This document shows positions 1-4,665 of a stretch of DNA of 10,485 bases, piece after piece. The stretch is from contig VBOM01000130.1 of NCBI GenBank assembly GCA_005877535.1, forward strand, positions 1-10,485, read 5' to 3'. Made by a program: the position numbers and the translations under genes. Position 1 is the first letter of the stretch, and each line of letters starts with the position of its first letter. Under the pieces are notes generated by a model, which made no database searches, was not told the DNA's origin, and saw only the letters and a program-made list of their open reading frames with translations. The DNA is from Nitrospirota bacterium (GTDB lineage: Bacteria; Nitrospirota; Nitrospiria; Nitrospirales; Nitrospiraceae).

Positions 1-716
1 TGACGCTCCTCACCACCGCACCGACCGTCGTCTATCGCGTGCTGACCACCAAGGGCGAGGTGCTGGAGGTCAATAACCCGTCACAGCTTCCGCCTCCCAG
101 CAGTATTGACTCATTTGAGGAGCCGTTTATTCTGGCTTCGGTGATTACCCCCGAACGGTACATGGGGGCCATCCTAAAGCTCTGTCAGGAACGCCGCGGT
201 ATTCAGCGGAGCATGCATTTTCTCGATCCGACGCGGGTAGTGATCAGTTACGAATTGCCGCTCAACGAAGTCATTCTCGATTTTTACGACAAACTCAAGT
301 CGCGCACGCAGGGCTATGCCTCGCTCGATTATGAGTTGCTCGGCTATCGCGAGTCTGATCTTGTGAGACTTGATATTTTATTGAACGGCGAGGCGGTCGA
401 TGCCCTGTCATTTATCACCCATAAAGATCGTTCCATTCAGCGTGGGCGTCAGCTTGCCGAGAAAATGAAGGAGCTCATTCCCCGGCAGATGTACGAGATT
501 GCCATTCAGGCGGCGATTGGGAGCAAGATCATCGCGCGTGAGACGATCGGAGCCATGAAGAAGAACGTCCTTGCGAAATGCTATGGCGGCGACATTACAC
601 GGAAACGCAAGCTCCTCGAGAAACAGAAGGAAGGAAAGAAGCGCATGAAATCAGTGGGGAGCGTGGAAGTGCCGCAAGAGGCCTTCCTCGCCATTTTGAA
701 AGTCGGTGAGGAGTGA
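1..716 (+). CDS. lepA: Elongation factor 4 (LepA), C-terminal part; 5' end outside the window
   Basis: LepA is a ribosome-associated GTPase that back-translocates or remodels stalled ribosomes. Frame 3 is open from the window edge, so the gene starts upstream; about 238 residues are visible and the GTPase domain is not. The visible part contains the EF-G-like domain V and the LepA-specific C-terminal domain. Landmarks are CQERRG, the [17 protein letters not shown] strand-helix, GYASLDYE, and the conserved tail with [20 protein letters not shown] followed by [15 protein letters not shown]. These are diagnostic of LepA rather than EF-G. The C-terminus is full length and intact. The TGA stop overlaps the GTG start of lepB by four bases, so the two are probably co-transcribed and translationally coupled. 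lepA-lepB is a common bacterial pairing. Confidence 0.97.
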
Positions 717-1282
717 GCGGGGAGACGAAACGACCCCCATCGGACGACATCCGGCACTCGACCCAACAGGGGCGGACGGATGCCGCAGGAGCGCCGGCGG
801 TGTTCGGCGAACCGTCGGCGCGGTCACAGCCGGGCAGGAAGTCGCTCGTTCGCGAGTATGCCGAAGCCATTGTCGTGGCGATGCTCCTGGCCTTTGCGAT
901 CCGGGTGTTTGTCGTCCAAGCCTTCAAGATTCCCTCCGGCTCGATGATTCCCACGTTATTGATCGGGGATCATATCCTGGTCAGCAAGCTGTCCTACGGC
1001 ATGGTCGTGCTCGATGACAAACCATTCACTCAACGGATCGATCCGGGGATTATCGACGGCACGATCAATCCGCGCGACAATTTCGGGCCGGTGACAGTGC
1101 CTGATGGCGCCTATTTCGTGATGGGCGACAATCGCGATCAAAGTCTGGATAGCCGGTTTTGGGGGTTCGTGCGCGAGGAAAAAATCCGCGGGAAAGCATT
1201 CCGTATTTACTGGTCGTGGAGCGGGCAAGGTCAAATGACGGAGTGGGTCAGATGGGATCGATTCGGCAAAGCCATCCAATAG
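713..1282 (+). CDS. lepB: Signal peptidase I (LepB) apparently lacking the catalytic-lysine segment
   Basis: Signal peptidase I removes signal peptides from exported proteins at the outer face of the inner membrane, using a Ser/Lys dyad. The 189-residue product has a polar N-terminal extension (residues 1-47), one membrane segment (about 50-70), box B with [10 protein letters not shown] and the nucleophile Ser77, box C with [12 protein letters not shown] (85-96), and box E with [12 protein letters not shown] (137-148). Box D, normally an RGDIVVF-like strand followed by a KR pair with the catalytic lysine, is absent. Tyr95-Gly96 is followed almost at once by [11 protein letters not shown], which normally lies well after box D. 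Ser77 to Asp146 is 69 residues, against about 110 in the short Bacillus SipS enzyme. Total length looks normal only because the N-terminus is long. The GTG start overlaps the lepA stop. Identity is secure; activity is doubtful. Confidence 0.9.
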
Positions 1283-2091
1283 GCAAAACCTCGCGCCAAA
1301 CGTCGGCAGGCTCCGGGGCCCAGGGCCAAGGAGGTGGGGCGTCCTCAAAAGTGCTTCGGCAGTATATCTCGCGGTTTCCGCAAGCCTCCGTGCTCGTCAT
1401 CGGCGACCTCATTCTCGACCATTATATCTGCCCGACCACCAGAAAGTCCCGAGTCATCGCACATAATCAGCAGATCGTGCGGTATGACGTGGAGCGCCGC
1501 GCGGAACTGAAGCCGGTGATGCAACGGCGGATTCTCCGCTACGTAGAATCGCGGTTACGGGAGCTATCCTGTCTCGTGGTGTCGGACTATGCCAAGGGAG
1601 TGGTGAGTGCCACGCTGATGTCGGAACTCACGCGGCTCGCCGCACTTCGCGGCATACCCCTGGTCGTCGATCCGAAAGTCGAACACTTCAGCTACTACAA
1701 GGGGGCGACAGTCATCACGCCGAACCATCTTGAAGCGACACAAGCGGCCGGAGTGCACGGCGATGACGATCAAGCCAGCAACGAGGCCGGCGCGACCATA
1801 CGACAGCGTTTAGGATGCCAAGCGGTGCTCATTACGCGCGGCGAAAAAGGGATGAGTTTGTATGAGGGAGAGGGCGTCTCCTGGCACATTCCCACACAAG
1901 CCCGCCAAGTCTACGATGTCACCGGTGCGGGCGATACGGTGATTGGGACGTTAGCCCTCGCGCTGTCGACCGGTGCCTCGATGAGAGATGCGGCGACGCT
2001 GGCCAACTATGCCGCGGGTATCGTTGTCGGCATGGTCGGCACCGCGACTCTATCGGCACAGCAGCTTTCGGAGGCTCTCAGCAATGAGTAA
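1252..2091 (+). CDS. hldA: D-glycero-beta-D-manno-heptose-7-phosphate kinase (HldA / HldE domain I type), internally shortened
   Basis: Enzymes of this PfkB/ribokinase family phosphorylate heptose 7-phosphate to the 1,7-bisphosphate in ADP-heptose synthesis for the LPS core. Visible motifs are VLVIGDLILDHY (48-58), TRKSRVIAHNQQIVR, LVVSDYAKG, VVDPK, TPNHLEA, LITRGEKGMSL, and the anion-hole and catalytic motif DVTGAGDT (222-229, base Asp228). There is no C-terminal cytidylyltransferase domain. Compared with E. coli HldE (from memory), about 75 residues are missing between Ile59 and Pro61: the SRISPEAPVPVV lid and the GGAANVA sugar-binding region. ATG 1252 (279 residues) has GGAG eight bases upstream and overlaps lepB by 31 bases. 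GTG 1351 would match the usual N-terminus, but the AAGGAGGT at 1328-1335 lies 15 bases ahead of it. The gene overlaps kdsB by eight bases. Kinase activity is doubtful. Confidence 0.85.
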   Translation: MGSIRQSHPIGKTSRQTSAGSGAQGQGGGASSKVLRQYISRFPQASVLVIGDLILDHYICPTTRKSRVIAHNQQIVRYDVERRAELKPVMQRRILRYVESRLRELSCLVVSDYAKGVVSATLMSELTRLAALRGIPLVVDPKVEHFSYYKGATVITPNHLEATQAAGVHGDDDQASNEAGATIRQRLGCQAVLITRGEKGMSLYEGEGVSWHIPTQARQVYDVTGAGDTVIGTLALALSTGASMRDAATLANYAAGIVVGMVGTATLSAQQLSEALSNE

Positions 2092-4536: not shown

Positions 4537-4665
4537 GTGAGAATGCTGAAACAGGCTCCCAACTTCGTTCTCGGCTCGACAAGATCCTCAACGTAGCCAA
4601 GAGGCTACGCCTCCGGTCTTGTCTTCGCCTGCGGCCTCGTTGGATAGCCTGTTTGAGCATCTCAC
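4537..4665. repeat. Long imperfect inverted repeat between pyrG and kdsA
   Basis: The 152-base gap between pyrG and kdsA is almost entirely one large palindrome. The left arm (4537-4598) begins GTGAGAATGCTGAAACAGGC, and the right arm (4603-4665) reads back as GTGAGATGCTCAAACAGGCT. The arms meet at a perfect seven-pair stem, CGTAGCC (4592-4598) and GGCTACG (4603-4609), around an AAGA loop. Inner matching blocks include CCAAC/GTTGG and GACAAGA/TCTTGTC. Transcribed, it would fold into a hairpin about 60 bases tall. There is no T tract, so it is not a classic intrinsic terminator. It resembles a dispersed intergenic palindromic element (REP- or MITE-like). Family membership is an inference; the palindrome itself is seen directly. 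Confidence 0.85.

Follow-up and report, generated by a model that had tools for sequence, protein, structure and literature searches.

A signal peptidase I gene without box D and a shortened neighbouring heptose kinase gene on a Nitrospirota contig very probably reflect sequence dropped in assembly

The contig and its genes

The window, meaning the whole stretch of 10,485 nucleotides that was analysed, is the entire contig C384 of genome G000, a draft of 2.33 Mb in 505 contigs which is 79.8% complete. From left to right it carries the 3' part of lepA, lepB, the kinase domain of hldE, kdsB, pyrG and kdsA, followed by genes for a KpsF/GutQ-type isomerase, pgsA, plsY and others. In a search from which 80 loci were kept, and which may omit records from the window's own genome, the top named matches were Nitrospira or Nitrospirota metagenome genomes and the lower rows often belonged to other phyla; 20 same-genus loci were fetched and aligned to the window. 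The features under study are the following (position, strand, description):

713-1282 (+): lepB (signal peptidase I), 189 aa, box D missing; TIGR02227 matched in two stretches
1002/1003 (+): junction 1, where 210 bp of the relatives' loci are absent (70 codons, including box D and its catalytic lysine)
1252-2091 (+): hldE / rfaE domain I (D-glycero-beta-D-manno-heptose-7-phosphate kinase), 279 aa; TIGR02198
1430..1431 (+): junction 2, where 228 bp of the relatives' loci are absent (76 codons, GGAANV region)

Further along the contig, the intergenic stretch between pyrG and kdsA (4540-4661) matches repeats elsewhere in relatives, for example before pgsA, with extra matches in 6 of the 20 loci (L041, L044, L047, L049, L050 and L053); by eye it has a palindromic look, and no Rfam match was obtained for the window. 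In and around pyrG, two relatives are shorter than the window, G010 by about 1190 bp (L041, G010:C12, 7925/7926) and G009 by approximately 363 bp (L045, G009:C1, 6693-6799).

The lepB frame passes directly from box C to box E

The conserved boxes of signal peptidase I are referred to here as B, C, D and E. The window LepB has the catalytic serine of box B (Ser77 in IPSGSM), an intact box C (LVSKLSYGM) and the 11-residue box E motif (GDNRxxSxDSR), and it shares these boxes and the C-terminal part with bacterial signal peptidase I (LepB; PF10502, TIGR02227; E. coli 1b12), scoring 104.4 bits against TIGR02227 where the cut-off is 47. Unlike signal peptidase I (peptidase family S26), it is without the general-base lysine of box D ([FY]IKR.[VI]G.PGD), as box E follows directly on box C in the frame, the segment between being absent. 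Pfam PF10502, TIGR02227 and the E. coli LepB structures each match in two parts, between which the protein has no counterpart to their middle. The translation and these profile and structure matches thus bear out the original prediction, made from the sequence alone, that the protein keeps boxes B, C and E intact but has lost box D.

Alignment with relatives, which had been proposed as a check, showed that all 19 same-genus loci which span 1002/1003 have exactly 210 bp there that the window lacks; the remaining locus of the 20, L036, starts partway through these 210 bp and was left out of the count. The join is blunt, with no shared bases seen. In the relatives the 210 bp encode box D, for example GDIIVFRFPEDEEKDFIKRIVGTPGD in P0001, and this box D aligns with that of the solved LepB 9nlo. 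P0001 is a full-length LepB of 259 aa, and its identity to the window protein is 96% to the left of the junction and 98% to the right.

Two other lysines were considered as substitutes and rejected: Lys92 belongs to box C, and Lys103 is no relocated box D residue, since the full-length P0001 has the same 13-residue stretch after its box D. A profile search of the 79.8% complete genome found no second PF10502 gene, the only match being the lepB of the window, although at this completeness a second copy could be unassembled; PF00717 matched two other places in the genome, on C490 and C472.

LepB among its relatives

The best 120 of 7750 database proteins with E <= 1e-30 were compared. Both the serine motif and the box D lysine motif were matched in 116 of the 120, and in all 116 the two residues lie 69 residues apart, not the 40-55 which the original prediction had expected. 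Its view that the total length is normal also failed: the window protein has 189 aa, compared to 230-267 aa in the 119 other listed relatives, and the nearest of these have the same long N-terminus. Junction 1 was not found in any of the 119 (the window's own entry aside).

The four proteins without a box D motif match were the window's own entry, P0049, which is called there as 133 aa, and P0005, P0019 and P0114. P0005 keeps the lysine in a slightly variant motif. P0114 (256 aa), which represents a cluster of 43 sequences, has glutamine in place of the catalytic lysine (FIQRIVGRPGD), for which a single base change or error would suffice. P0019 (244 aa) is a single metagenome sequence on a contig of 2110 bp; it is missing about 15 residues, among them the box D lysine, possibly through the same kind of artefact.

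In a survey of the genus, a lepB match was present in 29 of 32 genomes, the window's own counted. Of the 28 other matching genomes, 24 had a single open frame of 253-260 aa containing both halves of the gene, and the remaining four (G006, G001, G004 and G011) had parts only. In G006 the lepB gene is interrupted by exactly 100 N (L020, G006:C23, 1218-1317), which resembles a marked scaffold gap, and an intact box D follows shortly after. From G001, G004 and G011 only lepB fragments were obtained, and their fetched loci contain no box D motif; the loci of G001 and G011 run to the contig end, and the G004 match is 55% identical and broken.

The adjacent hldE frame lacks the GGAANV region

A second gap, absent from the original prediction, lies in hldE, the next gene after lepB on the contig. 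Exactly 228 bp are missing at 1430 relative to all 19 spanning same-genus loci (L035 ends inside the missing stretch and was left out of the count), and at most one base is shared at the join. The window HldE runs from LDHYI directly into CPTTRKSR, so that the GGAANV region is lost. Residues 61-279 resemble HldE domain I / RfaE (TIGR02198), with identities to database relatives that reach about 97-98%, and the protein retains VYDVTGAGDTV, which contains the C-terminal PfkB signature DVTGAGD. Unlike HldE domain I, it is without 76 codons of the N-terminal PfkB-fold part, including the GGAANV motif, and TIGR02198 matches in a single stretch from model position 100 with 260.9 bits, below the cut-off of 345.

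Among the best 120 of 1638 database proteins with E <= 1e-60, the GGAANV motif was present in 117, the exceptions being P0121 (the window's own entry), P0178 (225 aa, N-terminus missing) and P0142 (a variant). Nearly all of the other listed relatives (116 of 119) have 336-367 aa, compared to 279 aa in the window, and junction 2 was not found in any of the 119 (P0121 aside).

The kept reading frames of both genes contain no stop codon. Ratios of nonsynonymous to synonymous change relative to relatives were 0.03 and 0.00 in lepB to the right of its gap and 0.13 and 0.07 for hldE after its gap, that is 0.00-0.13 in 4 of the 6 comparisons of kept parts; the other two ratios, 0.36 and 0.44, came from the N-terminal parts of the two genes, where there are few sites. 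The kept parts differ from relatives mostly by silent changes, which would not be expected of a gene long dead but could fit a very recent deletion.

Clean losses on other contigs of the assembly

Seven other contigs of G000 (the longest, being 7 of 23 fetched) were compared with the relatives G005, G012 and G020, a loss being counted where the query sequence runs on with a break of no more than 15 bases and two or more other genomes have an additional 50-1500 bp. Outside the window, six clean losses (160-193 bp) were observed on five of the seven contigs, five of them in recognisable genes (position, description; each supported by at least two genomes):

C5:6350-6356: GspG-like pseudopilin, 160 bp lost; family match below the curated NCBIfam cut-off
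C8:8227: PEP-synthase-like protein, 177 bp lost; family match below the curated NCBIfam cut-off
C18:6189-6192: prolyl-tRNA synthetase 3' end, 182-183 bp lost
C19:3685-3695: no ORF of at least 100 aa in the relative, 170-174 bp lost
C19:6179-6192: lipoamide dehydrogenase, 193 bp lost
C23:4013: KefC-like antiporter, 192 bp lost; family match below the curated NCBIfam cut-off

C12 and C22 had no loss supported by two genomes; losses relative to a single genome were seen once in C22 (265 bp) and twice more in C19. With the two in the window, the eight losses span 160-228 bp. Unaligned bases at the break numbered 5-12 in C5 and C19, and about 4 bases are shared in C18. Two of the five gaps in recognisable genes have lengths not divisible by three, namely those in the genes for the pseudopilin and for lipoamide dehydrogenase, and in G000 the lipoamide dehydrogenase is split over two different frames. 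Selection for the reading frame was rejected as an explanation: of the six gaps that fall entirely within genes, four have a length divisible by three (P = 0.10 by chance) and two do not.

Deletion between direct repeats was likewise rejected, none being seen at junctions 1 and 2, as was sequencing dropout by extreme composition: GC content and folding energy of seven missing segments (the C23 segment was left out) were near those of their flanks, the missing piece of hldE being somewhat GC-richer (0.654 compared to 0.593 and 0.583). A search for the missing lepB and hldE pieces elsewhere in G000 gave no match, an empty result that is weak as there was no positive control. Dispersed repeats of about 180-190 bp were noted on C5 (L139, 1398-1574 and 7334-7520) and C23 (L215, 2262-2452 and 4552-4740); many copies occur in several relatives of the genus, and in appearance the repeats resemble small mobile or palindromic elements.

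The same rule applied to the three relatives gave 13 losses in 203 kb (G020 6, G012 5 and G005 2). The largest overlapping ORF was scanned against Pfam for 12 of the 13, the thirteenth having no ORF of 100 aa. Two of the 13 were inside or at the edge of the Pfam-matched part of a gene, namely a T2SSE-type ATPase gene (G012) and an FGE-sulfatase-type gene (G005); the others had no family match or lay upstream of the matched part, and several were multi-copy in the comparison set. The window was left out of the rate comparison, having been chosen for its gap. The rate of all losses was not significantly higher in G000 (6 in 49.7 kb compared to 13 in 203 kb, P = 0.15), while that of family-matched losses was (5 in 49.7 kb compared to 2 in 203 kb, P = 0.004, a value which treats the places as independent when G012 and G020 share at least one and shared places were counted twice). 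The excess is therefore confined to losses that hit genes, as sorted by hand from the family hits. G012 itself (L197, G012:C31) has clean losses of 78 and 77 bp at 2699 and 4570, one of them inside the T2SSE-type ATPase gene; two losses so alike in size suggest that assembly was the cause in this genome as well.

Discussion

Several contigs of G000 carry clean losses in conserved genes that are absent from the relatives compared, and we infer that these arose in the assembly and not in the cell. It is very probable that the contig lost 210 bp and 228 bp in assembly or scaffolding and that the lepB and hldE of the organism are ordinary, a reading favoured by the single exact gap length per gene against every spanning relative in two adjacent genes. 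The original prediction had offered missing bases as one of two explanations, and it is this one which the clean gaps in hldE and on other contigs, including those that break frames, uphold. Several observations run against it: both gaps in the window are in frame, clean losses are present in three relatives too, C12 and C22 had none supported by two genomes, and two of the six rate ratios are higher.

Assembly or scaffolding would have joined pieces of sequence end to end and dropped the stretch between, perhaps where pieces were merged across an unfilled scaffold gap or where runs of N were removed, and the G000 assembly would have done so repeatedly, at about 160-230 bp each time. As both joins in the window are nearly blunt, a merger of pieces over an unfilled gap fits better than repeat collapse.

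It is very unlikely that the 70 codons were truly deleted in frame to leave a LepB without its catalytic lysine, inactive or using another base, with another peptidase cleaving signal peptides. The frame is open, the other boxes are intact and lysine-less entries do exist in the database (P0019 and P0114), but the same kind of loss occurs in the very next gene, and such losses in neighbouring genes with 0-1 bp shared make a functional remodelling of one enzyme hard to invoke. The second lepB which the original prediction had put forward to do the work did not appear in the profile search of the 79.8% complete genome, the junction was seen in no other listed relative, and gaps elsewhere in the assembly break the frames of conserved genes. 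A genuinely decaying lineage or sub-population, with several gene pieces recently deleted, would account for damage to several genes across contigs, but it is slightly less likely still, as the eight losses fall within a narrow size range, they affect genes expected to be needed (lepB, proS and lpd), and what is left of lepB and hldE has a mostly conserved protein sequence and frames free of stop codons. Equally improbable is a living Nitrospira-type bacterium in which recent in-frame deletions have removed box D from LepB and the N-terminal core from the heptose kinase encoded next to it.

Were the LepB without box D true, signal-peptide cleavage would rest on another enzyme or another base. 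With the stretch very probably dropped in assembly, it has no importance as an enzyme finding. What the locus does illustrate is that in-frame losses leave the frame open and the family still recognisable, and thereby produce false 'catalytically dead' members of families. The short-form proteins of this contig turned up in the protein search (P0049 for LepB and P0121 for HldE), and proteins from the G000 assembly need checking.
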